This document shows, piece by piece, positions 10,601 through 50,627 of a stretch of DNA of 64,000 bases; position 1 is the stretch's first letter; each line of letters opens with the position of its first letter. The position numbers were made by a program, and so were the translations under genes. The stretch spans positions 13,357,463 to 13,421,462 of the forward strand of contig NC_036456.1 in the NCBI RefSeq assembly GCF_002775205.1, written 5' to 3'. The stretch comes from Xiphophorus maculatus. Its lineage: Eukaryota > Chordata > Actinopteri > Cyprinodontiformes > Poeciliidae. The notes beneath the pieces are model-generated. The model ran no database searches. It saw only the letters and a program-made list of their open reading frames with translations, and was not told the origin of the DNA.

Positions 10601-11369
10601 ACACATCACAGGCGCCTCTGTTCTCTTGCTGTGTCATGCTGGCAGGTTTATCTGAAAAGCCCGCTGGAACCTACCATCCCATCCATGCACGGAGCGTGCA
10701 GAGAACATGGTGAGCTGGGGGGCAGGGGGCTCGGGGTTCGGCTTGAACTCTTCATTTGTTTGCGACCAGAGGAAGAGAGGGACGCTCTGTGTTTCCACCG
10801 TCGGGGACACACCCTGCCTGCCCTAGAGCGGTGCAGTGTGATGAGAGGCTGAGAGAGACCATGACAGGCGGCTGCAGCCTTGTAGAGAGGGAGGGATGGG
10901 AATGCTGAATCAGTGAAACTACAGAAAAGGTCCAGGAGAGGGTGAACGAGTGGGTAAATGGCAGGGAGAGAAAGGTAACAGGAGGGGTAGGTGGCAAAAG
11001 ATGAGCTGCATGAGTCCTTTTCACTCATTTAATCAATAATCTATCGAGTTCACCACTATTTCGGCCATGTCTGTGTTTTACAAAGAAACTTTAAGCTGAA
11101 GTAAATCCCAGTGGTGACTTTTGTTTACTTTGGCTCAAAGACGACATTTTGCGTTTACAGTTAACACCAGCCCTGAGAACCAAGGTAAGATTTCACAAAT
11201 CTATATTTTTCTGTTTTGTTTTGCACTGATTGTCCAACCCCAGTGTCATATTGGCTGCTTTTTTTTTTTTTATTTTGTTTTTTTTCCGCATCGATGCACA
11301 CTGAATAAAACATGAGAACATAAGCGCCACCCTTCGATCTCTTATTTTAACTCTGGTTTCGTCTGTCAG
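7682..11369 (+). other. osbp2 3' UTR and osbp2-acy3 intergenic region
   Basis: No coding exon is recognisable. A poly(A) signal AATAAA at 9175-9180 could end osbp2, giving a 3' UTR of about 1.5 kb. Short inverted repeats built on ttcataagtaa occur at 8638-8710, and a gggttca/tgaaccc hairpin region lies at 9480-9600. Any acy3 promoter and leader exons must lie in the last 1 kb; candidates are given separately. Confidence 0.5.
11161..11184 (+). other. possible 24-nt leader micro-exon of acy3
   Basis: The segment lies between a TTTACAG acceptor and a GTAAGA donor. An upstream donor context, aacATG|gtgagc, occurs at 10707-10711. Joining that ATG to this 24-nt exon and to the exon at 11370 stays in frame and would add nine residues before the Met at 11370. 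This is splice-site reading only. Confidence 0.3.
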
Positions 11370-17300: not shown

Positions 17301-17617
17301 TCCATGTTTGGTTTCATGTACAACATGGCGTCCCTTTAGGTTTTAAAACCTCAAAGTGCTTTCTCTCACAGGACCGAGACTTTTGCCTGCTCCACCCTGG
17401 AGAGCCCCTCTTCCAGGCGTTCTCAGGAGAAACAATAAAATACAAGGGCAACGAACCGCTCTACGCTTTCTTCATCAACGAATGCGCTTACTACGAGAAG
17501 GGCATCGCTCTGTCCCTGGCCAGAAAGAAGCGTGTGACCGTCCCTTCTATCCGTGTGCAAACGGATGAGGAAGAACGAGCGAGTGAGCAGAGTTTTGCTT
17601 CAGAGGAAGAGGAGTGA
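11370..17617 (+). CDS. acy3: aspartoacylase-family amidohydrolase (aspartoacylase-3-like)
   Basis: Six exons, 11370-11611, 12330-12525, 14692-14785, 14872-14979, 16253-16365 and 17372-17617, join in frame to 332 residues, close to the 313-319 usual for ASPA/ACY3. The zinc site is intact: GGTHGNE supplies His and Glu, and DLHNTTANMG supplies the second His. Substrate and catalytic motifs are DTDLNRCF (Asn-Arg) and EIGPQPHG (the catalytic Glu). The C-terminal half has VDYPRD, AAIHPRLQDRDF and FINECAYYEKG. Family knowledge: zinc carboxypeptidase-like enzymes that hydrolyse N-acyl amino acids, either N-acetylaspartate (ASPA) or N-acyl-aromatic and mercapturic acids (ACY3). The choice of acy3 is tentative because several residues are ASPA-like (SRYVDTDLNR, VDYPRD). 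The ATG at 11370 lies right at the acceptor, so translation may start in an upstream exon. The tail is Glu-rich (FASEEEE). Confidence 0.82.
12526..13464 (+). other. first part of acy3 intron 2
   Basis: Intron sequence with no coding exon recognised. It ends in a poly(A) run near 13380 and a short palindromic 'tttatcg' block that leads into the coiled-coil pseudogene. Confidence 0.5.
13465..13930 (+). pseudogene. coiled-coil protein fragment inside acy3 intron 2
   Basis: An intronless open stretch runs from about 13468 to the TGA at 13852-13854 and encodes roughly 128 residues rich in Lys, Glu, Gln and Leu with heptad-like spacing (EELQKENKQLQKTVENL, LNFELEEARLTIKQLKC). Coding-like sequence (KVKLDRIKSRVAEKSKD) continues for 25 codons in another frame after the stop, which suggests a frameshift in a once longer gene. 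It lies in the same orientation as acy3, without flanking splice sites that keep acy3 in frame. A retrocopy or a transposon-carried host fragment fits best. The parent gene is not recognised. Confidence 0.45.
14980..16252 (+). other. acy3 intron 4
   Basis: AT-rich intron with repeated short words (about 'gtagtatttcaaaagagc', at 15590 and 15800), probably transposon debris. No exon is visible. Intron 5 (16366-17371) is similarly featureless. Confidence 0.45.
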
Positions 17618-19920: not shown

Positions 19921-24751
<4,831 letters not shown>

Positions 24752-26214
24752 TGTTCACCCAGACGGACTTAAAGGGGATTAAGTCGGCGGGGGGTTGGTC
24801 TCGGCTCAGGCGGTACACGGACGCGTTTCGGTCCTCCAGTTGCATCCAGTCACTCCAACATGGCTGATTGTGTATGATGGAGGAGAGAGTCGCACAAAAA
24901 TAAAACAAGCTGTAAAAGCGAACTATGTTAATGATGGCACCTTGTCTCTTGTGCTGGACAAAGCCCTGCGGACCGGCTTGGATACGCCATCTGTTCCGCT
25001 GTCCCACTTCCACAGACGGTGGGTGTCCTGCTGCAGCGACAGTCCGCAACAACAACAGCCCCTCCTCAACGGAAACAATAAATCAGTCCTCGGTAATAAA
25101 ATGTGTTTTATCCCCCCAAAAAAGAATAATCAAGGCAGATTTCACGAAGAGTTTATTTTTAGGATGCTCGGTGCACCAAGGATGCTGAGTACACGCTATA
25201 ATCCCTGCGTTTTCCTCTTCCGGTTTACCTTTTACGGTATAGGCAGTGGCAATACCAAAATAAAATCCGCACAGTTTTTTATCAGATCGCCACAAACTGA
25301 GAAATTCCCACTTCCCACAGAATCCAGTTATTACTTTCATTTTTAATTGTTTTAATTTTCAATGAATTGAGCTGCTGTAATTTTAGTTTTTTTAAAATTT
25401 TTTTTAGCCTGATCAGTAATTTGGGAACTTTATTGTTTATTCAGATGCTGTTATGTGACAAGAAGTATTGCAGAACAATTAGAGTTGACTGATTTAAGAG
25501 TTAAATGAGCAAGGAAACAGTTCTATGGGTGAAAAAACTCCCAAACCTGAACCGCTCATATTAACTGTGTTAGTGAAATTGCTTGGCTTCACTGGTAGCA
25601 TTCCCAAAGATCTTCCACAGTGAGATCAGTCTTGATTGTATCTGCTCTCTTGTTTTTATTATTTTTTTTGTCTGAAACACTGTTTGTCTGAAGCTTTTGT
25701 TCTCAGATGGATTTTTCTCACTACCATAGTTGTTGCTAATGATTAGTCATTCCCATCTCAATATCTGGCCTGCAGAAAGTCCCTTTTGCAAGTAAGTCCT
25801 GGCTTTTCTTTGTGCTACCAAGACAATGTCTGGTCAATAGGATTTAATGGTGATAGAGGAGCAATGACCAACAAAGAGACTCTTCACCTAAATAAACTAA
25901 AAGCCTTTCCCAGACTTACGAATGCGCCCAAACCTGACCCACTGTTGAGAAAGGTGAAACTCGTACAGTAGGTTGATCACCTTTACGTCTAGTTTCCACT
26001 AAGATTCATTTTAGCTACAAAAACCAAAATGAGAGAACACGCCTTTGTTTTGTAATCACTTTTATTTGATCATTTTAAAGACTGAAAATTAAAATGAAAC
26101 ATAACAGTGCTATTTTAAGCACTCTTTGAATACAACTTTATAAATATTATAAGCTTAATAGGAGTTAGTCAAGGCTTAGAAGCATCTCAAGAAATAAGTT
26201 ACATTTTTAACCAC
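24752..26214. other. cldnd1 upstream region
   Basis: Contains the cldnd1 promoter and 5' UTR (minus strand, leftward from about 25100), fairly GC-rich up to 25050. The rest, to 26214, is AT-rich with no exon recognised. Confidence 0.5.
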
Positions 26215-26562: not shown

Positions 26563-29603
<3,041 letters not shown>

Positions 29604-29732
29604 GAATTGTTTTTTTTTTATTTTTACTCAGAAAAGACCATAAAATTACATAAATAATTAATGTTTGAGTAGAACATAAATGTCTTAAAGCATGCCTTCC
29701 CCTCAGCAACAAATAAAATAATTGCTACATGT
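29604..29732. repeat. target duplication copy 2 (MITE-free)
   Basis: A 129-base near-identical direct repeat of 26215-26562 that retains the empty MITE site (atgtcttaaagcatgccttc). Confidence 0.85.
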
Positions 29733-30206: not shown

Positions 30207-30830
30207 CTACAAACACAGATTTTTACTTTTGCCAAGAATGCTGATCGATTTCGTTTCGATGCTGAAGTCGACGACAGACGAAGCCGCCTCCATCAAAACA
30301 TCCCGTATCTCATTATCGTCAGGAACAGACATGCCTCTAAACTTAAGGTTCATGGTGTGGACAAGCGAGCTTTTACTGGAAACATAATCAAAAAGGAAAC
30401 AAGATATTCAGTACGTTTAAATTTAAATTGACCTATGATGTGGAAGTAAAATTACCTAATTGTAGAAACCTCCATGGAGAGGAAGACAGAAGAAAATTTT
30501 TTCTGGAAGAATGGTTCAAGCTACAGAAGCAGAAAAGAAGTCAAAGTGAATCACCAGAAGAGACGGATTCAACTGTGAACAGTCCGATAGATAAGACACA
30601 TTTTGAACGGACAGCATTCACCTGTGTCTTTATCAGGGAAGACATATTACTGAAGGTTACAGATGAGTTCAGTAAGTCCCTTGTTAAAGGGTCGTCAACA
30701 GATGTGAAAGATGCAACTCTTGTAAAGTCTTGCTGTTTGAGTAGAGAAGATCTCGATGTTTGTTTACATGAATCAGACACCAGTGTACATTTGCAAACCC
30801 TGGATGATTGACCACATGTAGCTCTGGAGC
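30207..30830 (-). other. second SEA domain and C-terminus of the mosaic gene
   Basis: Three exons reproduce the exon layout of the other SEA domains here: DPLTRDLLNSSVTFSNMSS, then LEPFFQKKFSSVF, then SKSSLVHTMNLKF. In the place where SEA1 has NGSIV, this copy has KSSLV, so the Gly of the usual GS autocleavage site is lost. A Cys-rich linker (TCGQSSRVCKCTLVSDSC) precedes it. The last exon reads through to TAG at 30209-30207; a possible donor (aaaa|gtaaaa) lies just before the stop, so the true end is uncertain. Confidence 0.65.
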
Positions 30831-33800
30831 CTGTCAAAACAAGAATGGGAGAACATATGTCAGAAACGAAGAAAATTTTAAACAAACATTAACGTAAAAA
30901 AAAAAAAAGATTTCAGCTAATTAAATTAAGAAATCTTACGAATAACTGACTATAAATCTACACAGTTAGATCTCTATCAATTAGTCAATACCGGAAAAAG
31001 CAAAAGGAACAAAATAAATATCTCAGGACTTTAAGAGAAAATCCATGATTTATTCCACACCTTATTTTAAAATTAATTAGGACATAAAACATTTTTTCTT
31101 GTAGAAAGAGAAATTTAGATTCAACTAGTTTAGATTAGAATATCATTTTTGGGGCGGGGGGTTCAAGACGAAAAAAACAAACTAGAACTGTAAGCAGTTA
31201 ACAGATCCAAGCCCATTCTAGAAAGTCTAGACATAGATTTTAATATGGCTTTTACACAGAAAACTTAGTACATGACCAAATCATAAAAAATAATATAAAA
31301 TCCCTCAAAATCATCTTAGATAATCATGAAAAACTATTTGACAGTTTAGCAAAAGATTCTGAAATTCAGTCAAAATGTAATGTGCAAACAGGTTATTGCA
31401 GCATTTTATTCTTCACATTTCACTCTTCCATTGTTAGCTTGCACAGCAAATGCGTAGCAGTACATTTATATATTTTCATAGAATATCTGTAGTACTTTTT
31501 AAAGATTCCTTCTTTGTGACATAAAAATGAAGAACATCTTACCAGTGGCAGCTGCAAGCTGTACTCCACTGCTCCTGATATTGTTAAACACAGAGAAGAG
31601 AGTGAATGTGTATTTGGTTCCAGGACTGAGAGATGACACTATGTGGTTTACTGGTCCATCTCCATTTGGTGCACTGATGAATGTCTCTGTGCCATTAAAC
31701 TGGAGAACAAAGCTGATATTGTTGTTTATTTTATTCCATTGCAGAGTGATGCTGGTCTCATCTTGACTGGATGCTCTGAAGCCTTTGGCATTTTCAGGAG
31801 CTAAAATCACAACATGAAGAGAGGCAGTTTAATCATGTCACTAAAGCCCCTTGTCTATGGAAAAAGCTTTAACAAGCTTTAAAGCTTTGTTGAAAAAGTA
31901 AGAATTGGTGCAGCTTCACTACATGTTATTTGTAGTAGTAATTTGCATTTGGGTTTTTCTTTTCAGGAATGCTAATGTGTGAATTTTGGTGTACATCTTT
32001 TGACTGCATCATCTAAATATAAAAGATTACACAAGTAGAAAAATAACTAATGACAGAAATTTAATACCATAAACAGCAGAAATATATTTCTTTTGTCTTG
32101 AAAACAGAAGTTTATATAAACTTCTTTAATACTTGGTTGAAATCCCTTTGAACTTTTGAAACTTGCATAAGGTACAACAATTGGGTCATTTCTGACATAA
32201 TTTCAAATATAAAAACTCTAGCAACATTTAAGATGCAAATGTTACATGTATATCAATGGTGCCAAATACAAAACTATGTAGATATGCATTAATACTACGT
32301 AGGGATTTTGTTAAATATCTTACCAGTGGCAGCTGTAAGCTGTACTCCACTGCTCCTGATATTGTTAAACACAGAGAAGAGAGTGAATGTGTAATTGGTT
32401 CCAGGACTGAGAGATGTCACTATGTGGTTCACTGGTCCATCTCCATCTGGTGCACTGATAGATGTCTCTGTGCCTTTAAACTGGAGAACAAAGCTGATAT
32501 TGTTGTTTATTTTATTCCATTGCAGAGTGATGCTGGTCTCATCTTGACTGGATGCTCTGAAGCCGTTTGCATTTTCAGGAGCTAAAAACACAACATGATG
32601 AGAGGCAGTTTAATCATGTCACTAAAGCCTCTTGTTCATGGAAAAAGCTTTAAATATTCTCCCCCACTCTACTCCAACCAGCTTCATCTCCGTTAGCAGG
32701 ACCCACTAAAGGGGGAGGGCAAGATGTGCCAAACGTGGCACGTTTCTATTATGATTCATTGAACTACAATGAAAAAGCAAGAATTGGTGCAGCTCCACTA
32801 CTCATTATTTGTAGTAGTAATTTGCATTTGGGTTTTTCTTTTCAGGAATGCTACTGTGTGACTTTTGGTGTACAGCTTTTAACTGCATCATCTAAATATA
32901 AAAGATTACACAAGTAGAAAAATAACTAATGACAGAAATTTAATACCATAAACAGCAGAAATATATTTCTTTTTCTTGAAAACAGAAGTTTGTATAAACT
33001 TCTTTAATACTTGGTTGAAATCCATTTGAACTTTTGAAACTTGCATAAGGTACAACAATTGGGTCATTTCTGACATAATTTCAAATATAAAAACTCTAGC
33101 AACATTTAAGATGTAAATGTTACATGTATATCAATGGTGCCAAATACGAAACTGTACAGATATGCATTAATACTACGTAGGAATTTTGTTAAACATCTTA
33201 CCAGTGGCAGCTGTAAGCTGTACTCCTCCACTTCTTATGTTCTCAAACACAGAGAAGAGAGTGAATGTGTATTTGGTTCCAGGACTGAGAGATGACACTG
33301 TGTGGTTTACTGGTCCATCTCCATCTGGTGCACTGATGGATGTCTCTGTGCAATTAAACTGGAGAACAAAGCTGATATTGTTGTTTATTTTATTCCATTG
33401 CAGAGTGATGCTGGTCTCATCTTGACTGGATGCTTTGAAGCCGTCCGCATTTTCAAGCTCTAAAAACACAATGAGGTTAGAAGAAAATTATAAAAGTCGG
33501 CAAGTCTGACATTGTACATAGGTCACTTTGTATTACCAAAATATTTGTAGTTATTTAATGCCAGATTGAACAAAACTGTTTTGTTTTTCACTTTCTTGGA
33601 GTCAGAGGTAGATGCACTTCCTTAAAGGTGACCTATTATATTCCTTGAACAGGTTAGGACACATCTGTGGCTATATACAACATGCTCATTACATTTTCTG
33701 CACAAAATCCTTCTTGGATGATGAGATTTCAGTTTGGTCAGTTCTGCTCCTTTCAGAATGAGTTGTTTAAAAGCCTCTTATAACTTTATATCCCAATAGG

Positions 33801-36800
33801 CTGCTGCTGGCCCCCAACTCTACATTTACACTCGCAGGTAAAAACGCCTGCAAACAGATGCTCAATTATACAACCATATGTTTATGAATAGCAGAAATGT
33901 AGACTCCTGCACAACTAACAAGGAACTGTCTACTTTGGGACGTGGGAATTCAACACAACATTTAAAACAATCGGTTTGAAATGAGAGTTTAAATTGTCAA
34001 ACTGAGCTGTTGTTTCCCCTGGAGACTTTATATAAATGTTTCCTCTTACAAAAAAAATGCACACAAATGGTTTCTGATGTTCTATTTGACAATATTAAGA
34101 AATTGTACTTATTCAAGTCCTTATTGAAATCCTACTTGATGTAATAGAAATAAATGTACTATTATTCCAGTAGAGTAACTGAACTACACAGTGAGTTGTG
34201 TTTTACAGCATAATCAAGCAGCTACTGAGTTTTTTAAAAAATACATTTGTTTCCTTCTGTTGTTTTTATGTAAATAGAAATGAAATGATTTCAAAAGAAT
34301 GTTGCATTTTTTCAGAAGTAGAAGTACATTTTACCTGAACAGATGACACCAGCATCCTTACTGTGTCCACAGTTGTGTCTCCCAAATCTTCTGTGCTGAC
34401 ACTGTGTAAGTGAAGTTTCATAGCCAGAACATGACACATCATTAAACCAGATCTGTCCTGTTCCTTGACCAAAGAAAGCTCCAATTGTAGCATTCACTGC
34501 TGTTCCACAGTCCAACTCTCTACAGACCACATTGGCATCGCTCAAGTCCCAATCATCATCACAGACCGTTCCCCAGATTCTGTTGTGGTAGACTTCAACT
34601 CTTCCAGAACATCGAGAAAATCCATCACCAGCTAACCTGATCTGATCTTGAAAAAGAAACATATATTATTTGGATTGGATTTAAACAATATTGCATCTTC
34701 TGAAATACAAGAAAAAACAGCTACTTTCAGCAAATTTATTTTCACAAATTCTGCTCATAGTTTGTATTTGTATATCGGACTGTTTTCAAATTGAGTTTTG
34801 TAAGTTAAATGGCTGGGAATGTATTCCTTTTGCATGTGTATGTGTGCAAGTCATAAATTCATGTTATGAATTGTTCTTGTAAATAGAATATGTAGTTGTT
34901 CATGAATTTTGCCATCTTGTAAACTAAAAGTTTAATCTTCCCATGGTCTTAGCGAAACACTCAGGAGGAAGGAGAGGGGTTGTCCTGTTAGATCAAATCT
35001 CGCAAAAGCGCACACAGGGTCAGTGAAACTGTGCTGGACCGTGCACAGAGGTAAGAAAAACTCTTAGGAGACCCTGTCTCGTACGGCCACAGAAAAATTC
35101 AAGATCTCAAGCTGGATTTAATGCTTCAAAGGAAGATTTATTGCAAGAGTTATTTGAAGAAGTCTGGCAAGGTGCATGGACTTTGGTCAACTCAACACAC
35201 AGGTCGTCCTTTGCAATCGACTCCAAACTGGGTCAAGAAAAAATCTCTTTAGACAGCCACGATTAACGTATTTCTTCACTTGAAAAAGTCACCAAAGACC
35301 TTAGCCTCAATCTTTAGGCAGGTAATAAACATACTTATTATCAGGCCCACATTTTGTATTAATGTTTTTTTGTAATTGATCTTATGATCTAATTGATCTC
35401 ATCATCATAAAAAATAGTGACAAATTAATAAAATTTACAGAAAATATCAATCTGTGGGTAATTCCTCTAAATAAGATGGCACTCTGGAAATTTAGTTACT
35501 GAAATAAATGTTGTAACATATTGAATAGTTTCTACTTTTCAAAACAAATACATTTATTTCCTTGAGTTCATGGAAGTTTTGGATGTAGATAAAAATAAAA
35601 TCATTTGAGCAAAACAGATTTTTTTTCCTGAAATGAAAAATAGTTTTACCTGAACAGACGACACCAGCATCCTCACAGTGTCCACAGTCGCGTGTCCCAA
35701 ATCCTCCGTGCTGACACTGTGTAAGTGAAGCTTCATTGCCAGAACATGAAACATCATTAAGCCAGATCTGTCCTGTTCCTTGACCAAAGATGGATCCAAT
35801 TGTAGCAGTCACTGCTGTTCCACAGCCCAGCTCTCTACAGACCACATTGGCATTGTTTAAGTCCCAATTATCATCACAGACCGTTCCCCAAGTACTGTTT
35901 TGGTAGACTTCAACTCTTCCAGAACATCGTGGTAATCCAGCACCAGCTAACCTGATCTGAACTTGAATCAGAAGAAGAAACATATATTAATATTTAACTT
36001 TGATTTAAAGACTTTTGCATCTTCTAAAACACAAAACACTCCAGTCACCTTCTGCGAGTAAATGTTCACAGATTCCACTCATGTTTTATCCTTGTAAATC
36101 AGACGGCATTAGGTTCCTGGTCATATGAACAAATAGACTTCAAATCATAAATTGTGTTACTATGCTGGACTAGTGAGAAACTTTAATTCCTATGAAGGTT
36201 TTATGCCAAGAAGGACATGGATAGAGAAATGACTTGAGCACAATTTCCTATTATTTTCTGGAGTGAACCTTCATGTAAAGTCTATATCTTTCATTGTTAA
36301 CATCAACATTAGGAAGCTTTTTATTTTCTCTACTCTGCTCCTGAAGGTATAACCCAAATGTGTGCTTACTGTGGAAAAAGCTTTGCTTTACAGTAGCAAA
36401 GATAAATCTATAATTTTGACAGAAGCTGTGCAGCACAGGGTTTCTCTCTATGTAGATGATCTCCTGCTTTATGTCTCCATCCCAACCGAATCACCTTCTT
36501 CTGCTCTAGTGTTTCTTAATAATTTCTGCAGTTTTTTAGGCTATCAGTTGAACATCAATAAGAGTGAGCCTTAGACATAACTAACCTCACTTTTAAAAGT
36601 ATCAACACTTTTGCTCATCTGGAAGTCATAGTTATAAAAAAATAAAATAATCTATCTTCAGAAAACTAAACAGCAGGAGGAGGAGCGTGAATAAACTTTC
36701 ACGTCTATTACTTGATATTTAATTTGAGAAATCTTGTACGTTGGTCCTGTTAATATAACCACTATAACTATTCTGACTGCATTATACTGGAGCTCTGCAT

Positions 36801-39800
36801 ACCATAAGTTTTTGCTTGTGGCCTTCTTTGCTCTGCTTGGCCTTTATACTCTATTGGATCACTTACAAACCGTTTAGATAAATATTCACTAAAAATATGA
36901 GTTCAGTTCAGGAAATGGTTTGGCATATGCAGTTTTTCTATTTTTCCTATTATATTCAGGGATTTGCTAATGTCTTACTAGTGGCAAAATACATTTTAGA
37001 TATCTGGTTATAGATTATATCATTTGTACAATTTGTCGAGAACAAACTGAGGATGAGTTAACCATTTTAAGATGGTTCATCAGTCTCATTTCTCCAAGTC
37101 TTAGCTGTCTTCTATCTATCTTACTGTTAGTCCACTATTCAGTAGATGCAACCACATGGAGGAAACTTTCTACCATATGTTTTCCTCGTGTCCTGTTTTA
37201 AGGAAATATTTGGCACAGTATGAGTAATGGGTGAATCAAGTCCTTGTATCAGGACACGTCACAAACTGCCTCCTGTACAGTTTGGTACAAGAGTGTCAGT
37301 GGTACCAAGTTGCTACAAATGTAACTTCGGGCACTTTCATGAATCATCTATTGGCGTCACGACCAATTGAGATTGTTGCCATGGATTTGACCACGTTGGA
37401 CAATGAGTAGGGAAAACTTCATATAATGACTGATGTATTTAGTGAAGACACAGCTGCTGTATCAACCTGGGACTAAAAAGCATCCACTATTGCCCAGGTG
37501 TTGCTGACTGAGTGGTTCTTTAGGTTTGGTATTAAAAGCCACATGATTTTGGATCTTACTTGTAGCTGCTGTAATGCTGACTCCACTGCTCCTGATATTG
37601 TTAAACACAGAGAAGAGAGTGAATGTGTATTTGGTTCCAGGACTGAGAGATGACACTATGTGGTTCACTGGTCCATCTCCATCTGGTGCACTGATGAATG
37701 TCTCTGTGCCATTAAACTGGAGAACAAAGCTGATATTGTTGTTTATTTTATTCCACTGCAGAGTGATGCTGGTCTCATCTTGACTGGATGCTCTGAAGCC
37801 GTTTGCATTTTTAGGAGCTAAAACCACAACATGATGAGACGTAGTTTATTCATATGCATTTCAGTGTTATTTCAAATATATAAAAAGAAAAAAAATGCAG
37901 GGAGGTTTTTTTTTTACAGTCACAAGTCATTTCATATTACACCTGAATTTCCCTTTTGTGGTAGATACATTTTTTTGTATTTAATACCAAAATTAGTTTT
38001 TTTTCTGTTGTGAAAACAGAGTTTTCTTTAATATATTAAAAAAAATGCTTTTCTGAATATTTAAGTCGTCCTAAACAATATAATAATGTCTTGGCCAGTT
38101 GATGCTTCTCGCTAAGGGTAAGAAATATGTTCATGACAAACAGGCACTTGGTCTCTGGAATAAGGTGCAACAATTGGGTCATTTCTGACATACTTTCAAA
38201 CAAATATAAAACCTTTAGCAACATTTAAGATGCATTTGTTACATGTATATCACCGGTGCCAAATACGAAACTGTACAGATATGCATTAATACTACGTAGG
38301 GATTTTGTTAAACATCTTACCAGTGGCAGCTGTAAGCTGTACTCCTCTACTTCTTATGTTGTCAAACACAGAGAAGAGAGTGAATGTGTAATTGGTTCTA
38401 GGACTGAGAGATGACACTGTGTGGTTTACTGGTCCATATCCGTCTGGTGCACTGATGGATGTCTCTGTGCCATTAAACTGGAGAACAAAGCTGATATTGT
38501 TGTTTATTTTATTCCATTGCAGAGTGATGCTGGTCTCACTTTGATTGGATGCTCTGAAGCCGTCTGCATTTTTAGGAGCTAAAATCACAACATGAAGAGA
38601 GGCAGTTTAATCATGTCACTAAAGCTTTAACAATTCTTCCCTTCTTTACCCCAACCACCATCATTTCCTTTAGCAGGAACAACTACATGGTTAGTGCAAG
38701 TCATTTGAAACCATGTATTGTGAGCAACTTTTGTTATGTAACATATTTTGCTGAAGGGCAAGCTATTTGATAGAGAGCAAATTAAATTCATAGATTAACC
38801 TGTGATTTACTGCATGACCAAAGACTGGGACAGTGCAAACACCACGACAAAATTTCAATTGTTACATGTATATCACCTGTGTCGGATACAGAACTGTACA
38901 GATATGCATTAATACTATATAGGGATTTTGTTAAACATCTTACCAGTGGCAGCTGTAAGCTGTACTCCACTGCTCCTGATATTGTTAAACACAGAGAAGA
39001 GAGTGAATGTGTATTTGGTTCCAGGACTGAGAGATGACACTGTGTGGTTTACTGGTCCATATCCGTCTGGTGCACTGATGGATGTCTCTGTGCCATTAAA
39101 CTGGAGAACAAAGCTGATATTGTTGTTTATTTTATTCCACTGCAGAGTGATGCTGGTCTCATCTTGACTGGATGCTCTGAAGCCGTCTGCATTTTCAGGA
39201 GCTAAAATCACAACATGAAGAGAGGCAGTTTAATCATGTCACTAAAGCTTTAACAATTCTTCCCTTCTTTACCCCAACCACCATCATTTCCTTTAGCAGG
39301 AACAACTACATGGTTAGTGCAAGTCATTTGAAACCATGTATTGTGAGCAACTTTTGTTATGTAACATATTTTGCTGAAGGGCAAACTATTTGATTGACAG
39401 AAAATTAAATTCATTGATTAACCTGTGATTTACTGCATGACCAAAGACTGGGATGGTGCAAACACCACGACAAAATTTCAATTGTTACATGTATATCAGA
39501 TATGCATTAATACTATGTAGGGATTTTGTTAAATATCTTACCAGTGGCAGCTGTAAGCTGTACTCCACTGCTCCTGATATTGTTAAACACAGAGAAGAGA
39601 GTGAATGTGTATTTGGTTCCAGGACTGAGAGATGACACTGTGTGGTTTACTGGTCCATATCCATTTGGTGCACTGATGGATGTCTCTGTGCCATTAAACT
39701 GGAGAACAAAGCTGATATTGTTGTTTATTTTATTCCATTGCAGAATGATGCTGGTCTCATCTTGACTGGATGCTCCAAAGCCGTCTGCATTTTTAGGAGC

Positions 39801-42800
39801 TAAAATCACAACATGAAGAGAGGCAGTTTAATCATGTCACTAAAGCTTTAACAATTCTTCCCTTCTTTACCCCAACCACCATCATTTCCTTTAGCAGGAA
39901 CAACTACATGGTTAGTGCAAGTCATTTGAAACCATGTATTGTGAGCAACTTTTGTTATGTAACATATTTTGCTGAAGGGCAAGCTATTTGATAGAGAGCA
40001 AATTACATTCATTGATTAACCTGTGATTTACTGCATGACCAAAGACTGGGACAGTGCAAACACCACGACAAAATTTCAATTGTTACATGTATATCACCTG
40101 TGTCGGATACAGAACTGTACAGATATGCATTAATACTATATAGGGATTTTGTTAAACATCTTACCAGTGGCAGCTGCAAGCTGTACTCCACTGCTCCTGA
40201 TATTGTTAAACACAGAGAAGAGAGTGAATGTGTAATTGGTTCCAGGACTGAGAGATGACACTGTGTGGTTTACTGGTCCATATCCGTCTGGTGCACTGAT
40301 GGATGTCTCTGTGCCATTAAACTGGAGAACAAAGCTGATATTGTTGTTTATTTTATTCCATTGCAGAGTGATGCTGGTCTCACTTTGATTGGATGCTCTG
40401 AAACCGTCTGCATTTTTAGGAGCTAAAATCACAACATGAAGAGAGGCAGTTTAATCATGTCACTAAAGCTTTAACAATTCTTCCATTCTTTACCCCAACC
40501 ACCATCATTTCCTTTAGCAGGAACAACTACATGGTTAGTGCAAGTCATTTGAAACCATGTATTGTGAGCAACTTTTGTTATGTAACATATTTTGCTGAAG
40601 GGCAAACTATTTGATTGACAGAAAATTAAATTCATTGATTAACCTGTGATTTACTGCATGACCAAAGACTGGGATGGTGCAAACACCACGACAAAATTTC
40701 AATTGTTACATGTAAATCAGATATGCATTAATACTATGTAGGGATTTTGTTAAATATCTTACCAGTGGCAGCTGTAAGCTGTACTCCACTGCTCCTGATA
40801 TTGTTAAACACAGAGAAGAGAGTGAATGTGTATTTGGTTCCAGGACTGAGAGATGACACTGTGTGGTTTACTGGTCCATATCCGTCTGGTGCACTGATGG
40901 ATGTCTCTGTGCCATTAAACTGGAGAACAAAGCTGATATTGTTGTTTATTTTATTCCATTGCAGAGTGATGCTGGTCTCACTTTGATTGGATGCTCTGAA
41001 GCCGTCTGCATTTTTAGGAGCTAAAATCACAACATGAAGAGAGGCAGTTTAATCATGTCACTAAAGCTTTAACAATTCTTCCATTCTTTACCCCAACCAC
41101 CATCATTTCCTTTTGCAGGAACAACTACATGGTTAGTGCAAGTCATTTGAAACCATGTATTGTGAGCAACTTTTGTTATGTAACATATTTTGCTGAAGGG
41201 CAAACTATTTGATTGACAGAAAATTAAATTCATTGATTAACCTGTGATTTACTGCATGACCAAAGACTGGGATGGTGCAAACACCACGACAAAATTTCAA
41301 TTGTTACATGTAAATCAGATATGCATTAATACTATGTAGGGATTTTGTTAAATATCTTACCAGTGGCAGCTGTAAGCTGTACTCCACTGCTCCTGATATT
41401 GTTAAACACAGAGAAGAGAGTGAATGTGTAATTGGTTCCAGGATTGAGAGATGACACTGTGTGGTTTACTGGTCCATATCCATCTGGTGCACTGATGGAT
41501 GTCTCTGTGCCATTAAACTGGAGAACAAAGCTGATATTGTTGTTTATTTTATTCCATTGCAGAGTGATGCTGGTCTCACTTTGATTGGATGCTCTGAAGC
41601 CGTCTGCATTTTTAGGAGCTAAAATCACAACATGAAGAGAGGCAGTTTAATCATGTCACTAAAGCTTTAACAATTCTTCCCTTCTTTACCCCAACCACCA
41701 TCATTTCCTTTAGCAGGAACAACTACATGGTTAGTGCAAGTCATTTGAAACCATGTATTGTGAGCAACTTTTGTTATGTAACATATTTTGCTGAAGGGCA
41801 AGCTATTTGATAGAGAGCAAATTACATTCATTGATTAACCTGTGATTTACTGCATGACCAAAGACTGGGACAGTGCAAACACCACGACAAAATTTCAATT
41901 GTTACATGTATATCACCTGTGTCGGATACAGAACTGTACAGATATGCATTAATACTATATAGGGATTTTGTTAAACATCTTACCAGTGGCAGCTGCAAGC
42001 TGTACTCCACTGCTCCTGATATTGTTAAACACAGAGAAGAGAGTGAATGTGTAATTGGTTCCAGGACTGAGAGATGACACTGTGTGGTTTACTGGTCCAT
42101 ATCCGTCTGGTGCACTGATGGATGTCTCTGTGCCATTAAACTGGAGAACAAAGCTGATATTGTTGTTTATTTTATTCCATTGCAGAGTGATGCTGGTCTC
42201 ACTTTGATTGGATGCTCTGAAACCGTCTGCATTTTTAGGAGCTAAAATCACAACATGAAGAGAGGCAGTTTAATCATGTCACTAAAGCTTTAACAATTCT
42301 TCCCTTCTTTACCCCAACCACCATCATTTCCTTTTGCAGGAACAACTACATGGTTAGTGCAAGTCATTTGAAACCATGTATTGTGAGCAACTTTTGTTAT
42401 GTAACATATTTTGCTGAAGGGCAAACTATTTGATTGACAGAAAATTAAATTCATTGATTAACCTGTGATTTACTGCATGACCAAAGACTGGGATGGTGCA
42501 AACACCACGACAAAATTTCAATTGTTACATGTAAATCAGATATGCATTAATACTATGTAGGGATTTTGTTAAATATCTTACCAGTGGCAGCTGTAAGCTG
42601 TACTCCACTGCTCCTGATATTGTTAAACACAGAGAAGAGAGTGAATGTGTATTTGGTTCCAGGACTGAGAGATGACACTGTGTGGTTTACTGGTCCATAT
42701 CCGTCTGGTGCACTGATGGATGTCTCTGTGCCATTAAACTGGAGAACAAAGCTGATATTGTTGTTTATTTTATTCCATTGCAGAGTGATGCTGGTCTCAC

Positions 42801-45800
42801 TTTGATTGGATGCTCTGAAGCCGTCTGCATTTTTAGGAGCTAAAATCACAACATGAAGAGAGGCAGTTTAATCATGTCACTAAAGCTTTAACAATTCTTC
42901 CATTCTTTACCCCAACCACCATCATTTCCTTTTGCAGGAACAACTACATGGTTAGTGCAAGTCATTTGAAACCATGTATTGTGAGCAACTTTTGTTATGT
43001 AACATATTTTGCTGAAGGGCAAACTATTTGATTGACAGAAAATTAAATTCATTGATTAACCTGTGATTTACTGCATGACCAAAGACTGGGATGGTGCAAA
43101 CACCACGACAAAATTTCAATTGTTACATGTAAATCAGATATGCATTAATACTATGTAGGGATTTTGTTAAATATCTTACCATTGGCAGCTGTAAGCTGTA
43201 CTCCACTGCTCCTGATATTGTTAAACACAGAGAAGAGAGTGAATGTGTAATTGGTTCCAGGATTGAGAGATGACACTGTGTGGTTTACTGGTCCATATCC
43301 ATCTGGTGCACTGATGGATGTCTCTGTGCCATTAAACTGGAGAACAAAGCTGATATTGTTGTTTATTTTATTCCATTGCAGAGTGATGCTGGTCTCACTT
43401 TGATTGGATGCTCTGAAGCCGTCTGCATTTTTAGGAGCTAAAATCACAACATGAAGAGAGGCAGTTTAATCATGTCACTAAAGCTTTAACAATTCTTCCC
43501 TTCTTTACCCCAACCACCATCATTTCCTTTAGCAGGAACAACTACATGGTTAGTGCAAGTCATTTGAAACCATGTATTGTGAGCAACTTTTGTTATGTAA
43601 CATATTTTGCTGAAGGGCAAGCTATTTGATAGAGAGCAAATTAAATTCATTGATTAACCTGTGATTTACTGCATGACCAAAGACTGGGATGGTGCAAACA
43701 CCACGACAAAATTTCAATTGTTACATGTAAATCAGATATGCATTAATACTATGTAGGGATTTTGTTAAATATCTTACCAGTGGCAGCTGTAAGCTGTACT
43801 CCACTGCTCCTGATATTGTTAAACACAGAGAAGAGAGTGAATGTGTAATTGGTTCCAGGATTGAGAGATGACACTGTGTGGTTTACTGGTCCATATCCAT
43901 CTGGTGCACTGATGGATGTCTCTGTGCCATTAAACTGGAGAACAAAGCTGATATTGTTGTTTATTTTATTCCATTGCAGAGTGATGCTGGTCTCACTTTG
44001 ATTGGATGCTCTGAAGCCGTCTGCATTTTTAGGAGCTAAAATCACAACATGAAGAGAGGCAGTTTAATCATGTCACTAAAGCTTTAACAATTCTTCCCTT
44101 CTTTACCCCAACCACCATCATTTCCTTTAGCAGGAACAACTACATGGTTAGTGCAAGTCATTTGAAACCATGTATTGTGAGCAACTTTTGTTATGTAACA
44201 TATTTTGCTGAAGGGCAAGCTATTTGATAGAGAGCAAATTAAATTCATTGATTAACCTGTGATTTACTGCATGACCAAAGACTGGGACAGTGCAAACACC
44301 ACGACAAAATTTCAATTGTTACATGTATATCACCTGTGTCGGATACAGAACTGTACAGATATGCATTAATACTATATAGGGATTTTGTTAAATATCTTAC
44401 CAGTGGCAGCTGCAAGCTGTACTCCACTGCTCCTAATATTGTTAAACACAGAGAAGAGAGTGAATGTGTATTTGGTTCCAGGACTGAGAGATGACACTGT
44501 GTGGTTTACTGGTCCATATCCATTTGGTGCACTGATGGATGTCTCTGTGCCATTAAACTGGAGAACAAAGCTGATATTGTTGTTTATTTTATTCCACTGC
44601 AGAGTGATGCTGGTCTCATCTTGACTGGATGCTTTGAAGTCGTTTGCATTTTCAGGATCTGAAGACAATGAGGTGAGAAGAAAATTATAAAAGTCAGCAA
44701 ATCTGACATTGTACATAGGTCCCTTTGTATTAACAAGATATTTTCAGCCATTTCACACCAGAATGAGCAATACCATTTTTTTCTAGCTTTCTGGGAGTCA
44801 AAGAGGTAAATGCACTTCCTATTATGTCATTTTATGCTTCTTTGAACAGGTTATGACACGTCTGGCTATACAAAACATTCTCATTGCATTTTTTTTTGCA
44901 CAAAATCATTCTTGGATAATGAGATTTCAGTTTGATCAGTTCTTCTCCTTCCAGAATGAGTTGTTTTAGGGCCTCTTGCAACTTTAATTCGAAATCGGCT
45001 GCTGCTGGCCCCCACCTCCTTGGACCAAAAACATCTTGACCACTTAGTAGCACAAAGACATTTTTATTTTCACTGCATCTGAATTGCAGTGGTTGGATGA
45101 ACCCCTTCATAAAAGCCATAACATTCGATCTTCCTCTAAATTCAAGTACAAATTTTATATAGTCATAATTCAAAACTCATCTTTTTATGTGTGGATTTAG
45201 TCATGATTGAAATACGTTGGAATTGGAACTCTGTCTTTGTTTCAAGTATACCTACCTGGTACAAATATGATGCATCTTGATTAATTACAAATTCTTTAAT
45301 TCATTATTGCAGCTTTCCAGCAAACATCAAAATACATAAAATAATAGTTTGACTCAAAGGTAAAAAATTAAGAGACACAGGGCATTATCTTATCAAACTT
45401 CTCTGAGATTGAGCAAACTTTCCATAATTTACATAATATATTTTCTTTTATGTGAACGTAATTTGGCTTACATGTGACATCCACGACAATCGAACCTTTG
45501 TCAATAACAAAAACTGTGATGTTTGAAACTGCTTTGACCAAAACGTCCACAATTTGGGTGTTATTAGGAGCGGATGCTGTTGCAAATTCAAGATCAATGT
45601 TGTTGACAATTGACCCATTGCTGCAAGCATAAGAAAATATCAGTTAATCGGTGCACATATATACAGTATTTAACAATAATCAGAATTTCTTTGCAAATCA
45701 TACCTGAATGAAATCACAGTGAAGCTAAGCAATGAAGGAAACTCATTCCTGTAGACTGGTTCAAGCTGCACGCAGAAAGACAGATGTAAGGTTTTTGTAA

Positions 45801-48139
45801 ATGGTTAATTTTAAAGTTAAAAATTCAAAACTAAGCACAAAGTTTGAAATATTTGTATTATTAAAACTAAACCATCTGTTACACGCACGCATGCATGCAC
45901 ACGCCCACACACCCACACCCACACAACCACACACATATGTATATACTGTATATATCATAGATGAGAGGAATCTTCACCTTCTGACAAATGCTAAACTATT
46001 GCAAACTATTTCTCGAGGATGTGACGTCTGAATCAATCAATCAATCAAATTTTATTTGTATAGCACATTTCAGCAGCAAGGCATTTCAAAGTGCTTTACA
46101 TCATTACAAACACAGAAACACAATGCAATGTCTGAATAAGCTTTAGAAGGAAACCATTTATATCCAGACTATTTTTGCTTTACTTTTTTTGTAGTTTTTC
46201 CCCCCATGCTCTTAATATTTTCGTAGTTTGATAAAATGTGTTCTGGCTCAATGCTTTTTATTTTTAATAATCTTCCATTTATGCCAAAAGGTTATGGAGC
46301 ATAACATGATGTTTTTGAGTCTGTGAGAGATTTTACGGAAATTAAATTAAGCTGCTACATGCTGAATAAAAAACCTATCTGAAGAAAGAAAACTGAACAA
46401 AAGAGAGTTTAATCTGTTCATGATTTCTGTATTAGTGTATAAGTTAGTGGATGGACAGTTCTACTCATAGTTAAAATATTTTTGGTATTTTATTTATCGT
46501 TTTGTTTTACTTAAATTTACAATTAAAGAAAATGTGCTAATGCTGGGCTCCTGCAGCAACTACAAGCAAGCTGAGAATAGAATCAAAATTTGGATTATGT
46601 ATGTTGCAGCAATACTGGATCTTCACAGCCTGAATTGGCCTCTTCATGTATAAATACACGGTCAATTTTTATTTTCTGAAAATATATTTTTCCTGGTTGT
46701 TCTTTTGTGAAACTTAAAGGTTATGTCCCAAAAAAATGTTACATTTAAAGGCAATTTCCTGTGAAAATAATAATGCAAATATTCAACTGCCAGGCAAAAC
46801 AACACTTACATTGGACTTTAAAAGTGCAGCTCGATTACTAAATGCCGTAGAAGACAGGTTCAGTAAATCAGTTGTGAAAGTCTCCTCAGTCCGAAAAGTC
46901 AGTCGCCTTCTTATTGTTGACTCCACAGTTGTAGGTGTGGTTGGTGTAGTTGTAGTGTTTGCAGTGATAGCAGTAATGCTAGAATTTGTACTGGGAGCTG
47001 TGGTTGTGGTTGGAGGTGCTGTGGTTGTGGTTGGAGCTGTTGTGGTTGTGGTTGGAGATGACATGGTTGTGATTGGAGCTGTTGTGGTTGTGGTTGTAAA
47101 TGATGTGGTTGTGGTTGGAGCAGCTGTTGTGGTTGGAACTGTTGTGGTTGTGGTTGGAAACGATGTGGTTGTGGTTGGAGCAGCTGTTGTGGTTGGAAAT
47201 GATGTGGTTGTAGTTGGAGCAGCTGTTGTGGTTGTGGTTGGAAACGATGTGGTTGTGGTTGGAGCAGCTGTTGTGGTTGGAGCAGTTGTGGTTGTGGTTG
47301 GAAATGATGTGGTTGTGGTTGGAAATGATGTGGTTGTGGTTGGAGCTGTTGTGGTTGGAAATGATGTGGTTGTGGTTGGAAATGATGTGGTTGTGGTTGG
47401 AAATGATGTGGTTGCGGTTGAAAATGATGTGGTTGTAGTTGGAGCAGCTGTTGTGGTTGGAGCTGTTGTGGTTGTGGTTGGAAATGATGTGGTTGTGGTT
47501 GGAAATGATGTGGTTGTAGTTGGAGCTGTTGTGGTTGTGGTTGGAAATGATGTGGTTGTGGTTGGAGCAGCTGTTGTGGTTGGAGCTGTTGTGGTTATGG
47601 TTGGAAATGATGTGGTTGTGGTTGGAGCAGCTGTTGTGGTTGGAGCTGTTGTGGTTATGGTTGGAAATGATGTGGTTGTGGTTGAAGCAGCTGTTGTGGT
47701 TGGAGCTGTTGTGGTTGTGGTTGGAAATGATGTGGTTGTGGTTGGAGCTGTTGTGGTTGTGGTTGGAAACGATGTGGTTGTGGTTGGAGCTGTTGTGGTT
47801 GTGGTTGGAAATGATGTGGTTGTGGTTGGAGCTGTTGTGGTTGGAGCTGTTGTGTTTGTACTTGCTGGACCTGCTTATTATGAAAAATGAAAAAATAGAA
47901 CAAAATAAAATCTAATAACACCAGAACACCTGCTCCTCACTTTTGTCACACATTACAGAGACATCCAGAAACCATTTAGTTTGACTAAAACTCCACTTAG
48001 AAACAAGACATGTGTAACTAATGTAAACGGTTGTAGGTTTTCTGTGAGATAGAAACAAAGGTTTTAAAGACTTTACTTTGACTTGACATACCTTACCTGC
48101 TAGAGTGACAAGAATTAATGTGATCCATCTAAACTCCAT
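30207..48139 (-). CDS. secreted/surface mosaic protein: signal peptide, mucin stalk, SEA, FN3 x12, SRCR x2, FN3 x3, SEA
   Basis: Twenty-four exons join in frame to about 2084 residues. E1 48139-48097 is the signal peptide (MEFRWITLILVTLA). E2 47873-46810 is a Thr-rich stalk plus SEA start. E3 45765-45704 and E4 45620-45472 complete the SEA. FN3 exons start at 44658, 44035, 43437, 42839, 42241, 41618, 41020, 40422, 39799, 39201, 38578 and 37817 (258 nt each). SRCR exons are 35961-35650 and 34646-34335. Three more FN3 exons run 33459-33202, 32581-32324 and 31800-31543. A second SEA covers 30830-30622, 30520-30456 and 30375-30207. Every junction keeps frame, and FN3/SRCR exons are all phase 1-1. 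Approximate residues: stalk 15-330, SEA1 333-439, FN3 440-1471, SRCR 1472-1679, FN3 1680-1937, SEA2 to the end. The C-terminus (ILGKSKNLCL) has no membrane anchor; a further exon could exist. I recognise the domains but no named protein. That it is one transcript is inferred from phase continuity. Confidence 0.75.
31543..33459 (-). repeat. second FN3 exon group (3 exons) of the mosaic gene
   Basis: Exons 33459-33202, 32581-32324 and 31800-31543 each encode one FN3 domain of 86 residues with the SITLQWNKI and SPGTKYTFTLFSV cores. They are spaced 0.78-0.88 kb and are more diverged from each other than the main array, with introns of different lengths. Confidence 0.85.
33470..33840. repeat. intron block shared with 44665-45020
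   Basis: The sequences immediately upstream of FN3 exon 13 and of FN3 exon 1 are homologous over about 350 bases (gacattgtacataggtc, gcacaaaatcctt/cattcttgga, gctgctgctggcccccaact/cct). The block shows that the two FN3 groups descend from a duplicated exon-plus-intron unit. Part of it also looks like an interspersed repeat. Confidence 0.65.
34335..35961 (-). other. two SRCR-domain exons of the mosaic gene
   Basis: Each exon is 312 nt, phase 1-1, and encodes one complete SRCR domain. Hallmarks are IRLAGxGxxRCSGRVEVY, WGTVCDD.WDL, ANVVCREL, GQGTGQIW..DVSCSG and LTQCQH. The second has the eight cysteines of group B. The first has a ninth, because GHCEDAGVVC replaces the usual GHSxDAGVxC. The exons are clearly homologous to each other; the 5' part of each reads xQIRLAG. 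Introns between them hold no recognised exon. Confidence 0.9.
36362..36590 (+). mobile_element. LINE reverse-transcriptase fragment
   Basis: The plus strand encodes HRVSLYVDDLLLYVS followed by LNNFCSFLGYQLNINKSEP. It contains the YxDD-type catalytic box of L1-like reverse transcriptases and the downstream 'FG..SG.KIN..KS' region, then decays. It sits in the intron between FN3 exon 12 and SRCR1, antisense to the gene. Confidence 0.75.
37240..37475 (+). mobile_element. Ty3/Gypsy-type integrase fragment
   Basis: The plus strand reads RPIEIVAMDLTTLDNE, stop, GKLHIMTDVFSEDTAAV, matching the integrase core around its first two catalytic Asp residues (usual form 'MTD.FSK...A'). There is an internal stop, and no LTRs were identified nearby. 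It abuts FN3 exon 12 in the intron. Confidence 0.65.
37560..44658 (-). repeat. tandem array of 12 FN3 exons with higher-order structure
   Basis: Twelve 258-nt exons, each one FN3 domain, recur at intervals of 598 or 623 bases through the middle of the array. The 25-base difference is an indel in the intron (present as acctgtgtcggatacagaac). Start-to-start intervals from the left are 761, 623, 598, 623, 598, 598, 623, 598, 598, 598 and 623. The block 598+598+623 (1819 bases) is itself duplicated: exons at 40165, 40763 and 41361 pair with 41984, 42582 and 43180 with almost no changes. Introns are as conserved as exons, indicating recent unequal exchange. Confidence 0.92.
45885..45940. repeat. 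CA-rich microsatellite
   Basis: Imperfect (CA)n with CCCACA variants (acacccacacccacacaacc), in the intron between the mucin exon and SEA exon 3. Confidence 0.85.
46028..46130 (+). repeat. dispersed teleost repeat (AATC start)
   Basis: Begins with four tandem AATC units, then 'ttttatttgtatagcacatt' and 'ggcatttcaaagtgctttac'. It belongs to the same family as the repeats near 4220 and 5860. Confidence 0.6.
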
Positions 48140-50372: not shown

Positions 50373-50627
50373 TCAGTTTCCATACAGAGACATGTGGCCC
50401 AGTGTTTTATAATGTCTTGTTTCTGTCCTGTCAGACTCAAACTGCTGGAGGTTTTCTTCTGTTAAATTGAGATAGTCGTCCCCACTGTCACTTGATGCTT
50501 GCTCAGGATCAGAAACTCCAGATTCAATGTTCTGGTTTTCCTTATAGCTCTCCCAGTCGTTGCTTATATAGTACTCACAGTTTTGGCTTTGAAGTTTGGG
50601 GCATAAAATGTGTATTTTTGACTGCAC
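50373..50627 (-). CDS. orphan terminal exon encoding a tyrosine-motif cytoplasmic-tail-like peptide
   Basis: A minus-strand open stretch ends with a stop at 50373. It encodes QNCEYYISNDWESYKE, then an acidic Ser/Glu segment and DDYLNLTEENLQQFE, then RHYKTLGHMSLYGN. Two YxxL motifs and several other tyrosines in an acidic, hydrophilic stretch resemble the tail of a signalling receptor. Candidate acceptors (ctacag, gtgcag) lie just upstream at about 50640. I found no partner exon between here and 53056. It may be a remnant of a neighbouring gene or an alternative 3' exon. No function is assigned. Confidence 0.35.
   Translation of the reverse strand: MQSKIHILCPKLQSQNCEYYISNDWESYKENQNIESGVSDPEQASSDSGDDYLNLTEENLQQFESDRTETRHYKTLGHMSLYGN

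Follow-up and report, generated by a model that had tools for sequence, protein, structure and literature searches.

A predicted mosaic gene in a mucin-SEA cluster of Xiphophorus maculatus combines FN3 and SRCR exon modules and may encode a secreted protein

As a rule each group B SRCR domain is encoded by a single exon, and DMBT1 contains many SRCR domains plus CUB and ZP domains. SSc5D is a soluble protein with SRCR domains and a large mucin-like region, and its SRCR part binds bacteria (PMC5061727); mutagenesis of SALSA shows that residues of the cation sites are required for ligand binding (PMC7043408). In MUC1, MUC13 and MUC16 and in Muc13 and I-Muc of sea bream, a Pro/Thr/Ser-rich (PTS) stretch precedes a SEA domain with a G-S type motif (PMC3680472), and the SEA cleavage motif of MUC1 reads GSVVV (PMC4456727). 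Fibronectin and PST-rich stretches are listed among the partners of SRCR domains (PMC10855680), and a title cited in the same paper names a multiadhesive protein of the sponge Geodia with fibronectin, SRCR and complement control modules. The present contribution deals with a gene on the minus strand of a 64,000-nt stretch of Xiphophorus maculatus DNA (the window; NC_036456.1, here contig C14, 13.36-13.42 Mb, of a 704-Mb genome), around which 324 kb were mapped. Positions are window coordinates, and those of cluster features in kb run beyond the window end. We lean towards reading it as a single teleost gene that belongs to a local mucin-SEA cluster, took up two foreign exon modules and probably no longer has its membrane anchor.

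The gene was rebuilt by script from 48139 to 30207. It comprises 24 exons without a stop or a frameshift (Table 1), all 23 introns are of the GT-AG type, and reading the last exon through to 30207 gives an open frame of 2083 residues. The order of the modules is signal peptide, Thr-rich mucin exon, SEA1, 12 FN3 units, two SRCR domains, three FN3 units and SEA2. A preliminary description of the sequence had given 24 minus-strand exons with an unbroken frame of about 2084 residues, phase 1 junctions through the FN3/SRCR section and the domain order mucin-SEA-FN3(12)-SRCR(2)-FN3(3)-SEA; the rebuilt exons and Pfam agree with this order, and all joins in that section are indeed in phase 1. Each of the 15 FN3 exons has 258 nt and is in phase 1, and both SRCR exons have 312 nt and run from phase 1 to phase 1, so that skipping or repeating any one of them keeps the frame. 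At the local base composition the chance that 412 non-redundant codons stay open is about 1e-12.5, a figure that flatters the model because the exons were chosen for being open. Exon 1 is the single signal-peptide-exon candidate that a simple scan found in 48400-47900, and the same scan finds exon 1 of the neighbouring gene A (57673).

The protein-domain search of the spliced product that had been proposed with the preliminary description was run in Pfam on a shortened copy carrying six of the 15 FN3 units. It returned SRCR (expectation value (E) 2e-66, two stretches), fn3 (E 5e-39, six stretches) and SEA (E 1e-8, one stretch, namely SEA1, above the cut-off). Ten families were matched in total. 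The others are weak or fall on the domains already named, as do further FN3-like or immunoglobulin (Ig)-like models and another SRCR model; some likewise pass their cut-offs. Scanned singly, 11 of 11 FN3 units matched fn3, and the remaining four are identical to scanned units or one residue apart. The predicted FN3 fold has seven strands, with a mean predicted local distance difference test score (pLDDT) of 87.6 in the best model and 46-84 in the other four. Its best Foldseek match has E 1.4e-4, and the titles of the 50 matches listed, CD148 among them, name FN3 domains, monobodies or complexes holding FN3 domains. Over 325 residues of exon 2 the fractions of Thr, Pro and Ser are 0.56, 0.14 and 0.08, which is the extended Ser/Thr/Pro-rich composition of SEA mucins, and the SEA part of this exon shares 71% identity with sister gene B.

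SEA1 carries GSIV as its G-S self-cleavage motif. Its sole match among solved structures with E < 0.01 is the SEA domain of ADGRF1 (E 0.001), with which it has the motif NGSIV in common; the GAIN and seven-helix parts of ADGRF1 were not found here. A 57-residue ADGRF1 chain (E 0.026) has the G of NG-S, as aligned, for its last residue, an end that would be consistent with cleavage in this motif. SEA2 was identified by the same three-exon plan and by 33-49% identity of its third exon to the other SEA third exons of the cluster; this exon equals the third exon of SEA1 in length (149 nt) and in end phase. Four Cys within 17 residues (product 1942-1958; window 30830-30730, minus strand) precede SEA2 and form a possible cross-linking site.

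The nearest relatives of the three module types in the genome lie in three different clusters, all genome-wide match counts being lower bounds. The mucin-SEA cluster to which the gene belongs exceeds 200 kb, with the gene at its 3' end, and a series of PTS and SEA exons extends within it, with gaps, over 53-255 kb on the same strand. Five SEA sets (61.0, 151.4, 153.5, 214.1 and 216.2 kb) are followed by a hydrophobic, anchor-like exon and were found by similarity to that exon. All 29 genome matches of the SEA1 third exon (E<=0.01), which do not include the third exon of SEA2, and all 20 matches of SEA2, which include three at the position of SEA2 itself, fall within C14 13.40-13.67 Mb, the gene's own cluster. 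Gene B (60.9 kb and upstream) has the same SEA exon plan and phases, and its third SEA exon is 54% identical to SEA1 and 49% to SEA2; a SEA domain at 151.5 kb reaches 70% identity to SEA1. FN3 and SRCR matches in the mapped cluster are confined to the gene described here (tblastn). Of the 91 FN3 matches in the genome, 15 are in this gene and 20 on C10; 54 lie at C14 18.94-19.09 Mb (55-78% identity), some 5.5 Mb from the gene, and two at C14 24.76 Mb. Between six of the 15 units and three relatives from one 4.2-kb stretch, DNA identity is 75-85%, and the similarity stops within about 15 nt of the exon. For SRCR, 150 of 235 candidates were scored; the at least 151 matches are led by the two domains of this gene, followed by C1 3.81 Mb at 65%, where the relatives sit in a cluster with Ig exons, and none of the SRCR matches listed lies in the FN3 clusters. 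Among the matches listed, the SEA, FN3 and SRCR module types come together nowhere but in this gene.

The FN3 matches on C10 adjoin phosphatase exons, whereas those at C14 18.9 Mb do not among the matches listed. A mucin-tyrosine phosphatase of the PTPRJ/PTPRH type was considered and rejected, because the PF00102 matches listed include no catalytic exons here: with 150 of 273 candidates scored, the catalytic domain of protein tyrosine phosphatases gave at least 158 matches, and none of those listed is at this locus or at C14 18.94-19.09 Mb. The end of the latter FN3 cluster holds a degraded FN3 unit and a frame that we take to be of the RING/TRIM type.

Different nearest relatives of the modules would also be expected if two or more genes had been wrongly joined, i.e. 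a mucin-SEA gene, an FN3/SRCR gene and a SEA2 remnant, and two further observations point the same way: cluster SEA exons elsewhere precede last exons, and AATAAA is present in six of seven introns tested. Such a misjoining, which the preliminary description had named as the outcome that would overturn its model, finds little support and appears improbable to us. A scan of 46800-30850 that covers phase-1 first exons of 36-110 nt gave one signal-peptide-exon candidate; its frame continues across the SRCR1 acceptor, and it is no spliced first exon. A match to the anchor-like exon was not found after SEA1, so that a gene ending there was rejected. The joins of the FN3/SRCR section share one phase throughout, and the FN3 blocks flank the SRCR pair; the introns preceding FN1 and FN13 show 82% identity over 362 columns, which indicates that the two FN3 blocks share their history.

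The neighbouring mucin-SEA genes, in which only mucin and SEA were found, differ from the present gene in their hydrophobic last exon, no such exon having been found here. Spliced from the phase-1 donor at 30227 to 29881, the first good acceptor, the frame meets a stop after two codons. The start of this candidate terminal exon (exon 25) aligns over 36 columns with the hydrophobic last exon of gene B, at the same distance from the acceptor to within 3 nt. Alignments scoring as well were obtained in none of 1000 letter shuffles for genes B and B2 (near-identical) and in one of 1000 for S3. When the anchor exon is searched by blastn across the 19.2 kb of the gene region, the start of exon 25 is its best match (E 0.014 with the exon of B, 0.60 with that of S3). 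Compared with the anchor exon, of which intact copies are present elsewhere in the cluster, exon 25 has an in-frame stop and a length difference of 2 nt, and the resemblance does not extend into the hydrophobic part; AATAAA lies within it at 29622. Over the last 80 residues, hydropathy in a 19-residue window reaches at most 0.97. A membrane segment was not found after SEA1, which follows the PTS stretch as in SEA mucins, and by hydropathy and exon similarity neither a transmembrane nor a glycosylphosphatidylinositol (GPI) anchor appeared within the searched stretch. Since the exon that matches the anchor holds an in-frame stop, the product is probably secreted, and on these sequence features secretion is more likely than anchoring.

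A membrane-attached mucin that receives its transmembrane or GPI signal from an undetected downstream exon is the rather unlikely alternative. Five sister SEA sets precede a hydrophobic exon and the last SEA2 exon retains length and donor phase, both as this alternative would have it, but the first good acceptor leads to the early stop, and an inverted repeat begins at 29606 and is followed by plus-strand genes (Pfam). Moreover, the 60 kb downstream gave a single match to the anchor exon, of 16 residues at -5242 on the opposite strand (E 0.066), and this match failed the threshold of E 0.05 in the wider cluster mapping. As far as searched, the protein thus lacks the anchor of membrane mucins, while by its domains it belongs to SRCR group B. 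It further differs from the SEA membrane mucins named above, which share its order of PTS and SEA with a G-S type motif, by the insertion of 15 FN3 and two SRCR domains and by a second, C-terminal SEA domain. The inverted repeat (19922-22966 / 26563-29606) has 1608 nt that are 100% complementary, and one arm reaches the 3' end of the gene. Its arms hold frames that we take to be claudin-domain-like, and Pfam returned nothing for a similar frame between the arms (24446-24754).

SRCR1 contains nine and SRCR2 eight Cys, and the eight group B positions are common to both; the domain match and the single 312-nt exon of each domain are likewise those of group B. Cation positions were assigned by fixed spacing from published numbering (PMC7043408). 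SRCR1 has D, D and E at site 2, D, N, D and D at site 3, and N instead of one site 1 aspartate; it resembles DMBT1/SALSA/gp340 in having D, E or N throughout two exposed cation sites at the spacing given there. The preliminary description had proposed a surface or mucus protein for adhesion or microbe contact. Its functional part is supported as a possibility by the conserved cation positions of SRCR1, and location at the surface is weakened by the C-terminus, which is not hydrophobic, and by the stop in the anchor-matching exon. Against solved chains SRCR1 scores 121.3 bits with a single SRCR domain of DMBT1 (6sa5) and 120.5 bits with domain 7 of CD163/M130. Closer kinship with CD163 was rejected as these single-domain scores are alike; whole CD163 chains top the match table because their nine domains add up. 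DMBT1 is not known to have a SEA domain or an FN3 rod, both of which are predicted here, and neither CUB nor ZP appeared in the Pfam scan of the shortened product.

In the abstract description of SSc5D, five SRCR domains are followed by the mucin and no SEA or FN3 is given (PMC5061727), whereas here the mucin comes first and the FN3 rod, flanked by a SEA domain on each side, encloses one SRCR pair. The Geodia protein shares the combination of SRCR and a fibronectin module, and its title names no SEA or mucin. SEA domain, SRCR and fibronectin type III together were not found by exact terms in the open-licence literature, in line with the earlier statement that no named protein with this domain order is known. 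Searches of the same literature for SRCR and fibronectin type III in teleosts and for SRCR, FN3 and mucin in zebrafish gave nothing relevant by titles and abstract starts. SRCR plus fibronectin is therefore already known, at least from the cited sponge title, and their combination with mucin and two SEA domains was not found elsewhere in the literature so searched.

Likeness among the FN3 exons of the array is 89-100%. Together with their introns, FN3-5 and FN6-8 make up two nearly identical blocks, each about 1.8 kb long, and SRCR1 and SRCR2 are 90% alike in DNA. Silent divergence is 0.09 between SRCR1 and SRCR2 and 0.78-0.87 between SRCR and three C1 relatives; it is 0.33-0.65 for FN3 against the C14 relatives and 0.45-0.51 for SEA1 against its nearest sister. 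Units that are more alike inside the gene than to outside relatives point to amplification after capture. Assembly error as the sole origin of the FN3 copies was rejected on 46 variable sites, and the near-identical blocks FN3-5 and FN6-8 could be duplicated assembly. The ratio of replacement to silent divergence (dN/dS) is 0.30-0.35 for SRCR against the three C1 relatives, 0.34-0.56 for FN3 against the C14 relatives and 0.20-0.56 in 17 of 21 pairs of SEA third exons. The other four SEA pairs are near-identical, and two of these have four replacement and no silent changes. At the larger distances these values suggest long-term constraint on SRCR, FN3 and SEA exons.

Several points weigh against the reading as one functional gene with captured modules and a lost anchor. 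The single-gene model from 48139 to 30207 is a prediction from genomic DNA alone, and the direction in which the modules would have moved is read from within-genome similarity that includes no outgroup. SEA2, submitted to Pfam as a separate fragment, reaches E 9e-4 and 19.8 bits at a cut-off of 26.4 bits, and it has SSLV, the Gly of the cleavage motif being gone; some SEA pairs, at least two of them with SEA2, are saturated (dS > 2). In SRCR2 a lysine replaces the site 2 glutamate, a charge reversal. The loss of the anchor leans on the 36-column match, and 'anchor' is our own label, given by hydropathy, for the hydrophobic last exon of the sister genes. The value of this exon in gene B, 1.61, equals the top internal window of the present protein (residue 410, in SEA1), so that hydropathy alone decides little. 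SRCR1 and SRCR2 give a dN/dS of 1.16 (24 replacement and 6 silent changes). In the FN3 array, where the ratio of replacement to silent differences over all pairs (pN/pS) is 0.63, 31 of 48 changes are replacing as compared to 36 expected (p 0.07), and the absence of stops among the 48 changes has a chance probability of 0.26. The recent copies thus appear near neutral with little purifying selection, which fits relaxed as well as diversifying selection.

A decaying, functionless gene, whose anchor was lost and whose FN3 and SRCR units drift after recent duplication, would account for the broken anchor-like exon, for these near-neutral values and for the loss of site 2 in SRCR2. We nevertheless hold decay to be very unlikely, since 24 exons are free of stops and frameshifts, both SRCR domains keep the eight group B Cys positions and all 15 FN3 exons have retained 258 nt. 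In addition, SRCR exons at C1 3.755-3.81 Mb, which lie beside Ig exons, give pairwise dN/dS values of 0.97, 0.97 and 3.73 for three copies, so that a ratio near 1 is not peculiar to this gene; these values suggest rapid change of the C1 copies themselves.

If the gene is indeed one member of the mucin-SEA cluster with two captured modules, exon shuffling would have brought the FN3 array and the SRCR pair between two SEA domains, the modules would later have been amplified in place, and loss of the anchor would have turned the product into a secreted protein. Of 67 N-glycan sequons in the product 56 are within FN3 units (two to five per domain), and together with the Thr-rich exon they predict a heavily glycosylated rod plus mucin. 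The 15 FN3 domains may form a rod that keeps the O-glycosylated mucin part and the SRCR pair apart, and SRCR1 may bind anionic microbial or matrix ligands via Ca2+/Mg2+. SEA1 would cleave itself and stay together until pulled, which would make it a break point between mucin and rod. From the cation-site mutagenesis of SALSA, the positions kept in SRCR1 and the binding of bacteria by SSc5D we propose that the whole protein may act as a soluble mucus decoy or agglutinin similar to DMBT1 and SSc5D. More tentatively, and with clearly less confidence, it might be a lineage-specific soluble pattern-recognition mucin, exon-shuffled from three clusters and freed of its anchor, a convergent counterpart of SALSA and SSc5D in which the FN3 copy number is still being tuned and the reach may vary between individuals. 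Capture of the modules with loss of the anchor predicts a soluble protein, cleavage of SEA1, cation-dependent binding by SRCR1 and variation in FN3 number, for which the spacing of the exons would give steps of 598-623 nt. If true, the locus would offer a traceable case of phase-1 exon shuffling of a new mucus or defence protein, with relatives of each module still in the genome, and a case of a membrane mucin turned secreted.

Table 1. Exons of the predicted gene and its candidate terminal exon, in window coordinates.
Feature	Position	Strand	Basis
Exon 1: start codon and signal-peptide-like MEFRWITLILVTLA	48097..48139	-	simple scan
Exon 2: Thr-rich PTS mucin stretch and first part of SEA1	46810..47870	-	composition, gene B identity
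Exon 3: SEA1 part b	45704..45765	-	exon model
Exon 4: SEA1 part c; self-cleavage position GSIV	45472..45620	-	motif, genome matches
Exons 5-16: FN3 units 1-12, 258 nt each, phase 1	37560..44658	-	Pfam, genome matches
Exon 17: SRCR1, 9 Cys; sites 2 and 3 all D, E or N	35650..35961	-	Pfam, spacing
Exon 18: SRCR2, 8 Cys; lysine at the glutamate position of cation site 2	34335..34646	-	spacing
Exons 19-21: FN3 units 13-15	31543..33459	-	exon model, genome matches
Exon 22: linker with four Cys, then SEA2 part a	30622..30830	-	exon model
Exon 23: SEA2 part b	30456..30520	-	exon model
Exon 24: SEA2 part c, 149 nt; no Gly of the cleavage motif	30227..30375	-	exon model, motif
Exon 25 (candidate terminal exon): start resembles the sister anchor exon, in-frame stop after two codons	29600..29881	-	alignment

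Other frames were seen around the gene. On the plus strand, Pfam recognises an oxysterol-binding protein exon and two aspartoacylase-type exons (841-1173 and 11316-17617). A cytoplasmic-tail-like frame (DDYLNL) at 50376-50627 on the minus strand gave no Pfam match, and a partner exon was not recognised by eye. Gene A, also on the minus strand, has its signal-peptide-like exon at 57673 and a stop-to-stop mucin frame of 1339 codons (57075-53056), which ends in a hydrophobic tail and in which no SEA was seen.

Giant mucin-SEA exons form three tandem sets on C14 (60.9-144, 151-201 and 214-255 kb), and SEA matches continue to C14 13.67 Mb. The second and third sets have an extra SEA and hydrophobic last exon (151.4-151.8 and 214.1-214.5 kb), which could be an alternative 3' end. 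In the first set, the neighbouring mucin-SEA gene contains eight stop-to-stop PTS frames that sum to 25,354 codons. One stop-free Thr-rich frame of this gene runs on the minus strand over window positions 63151 to 93042 (29,892 nt, 9964 amino acids) and includes a 9.87-kb tandem duplication that is more than 98% alike, so that its length may be polymorphic or an effect of the assembly.

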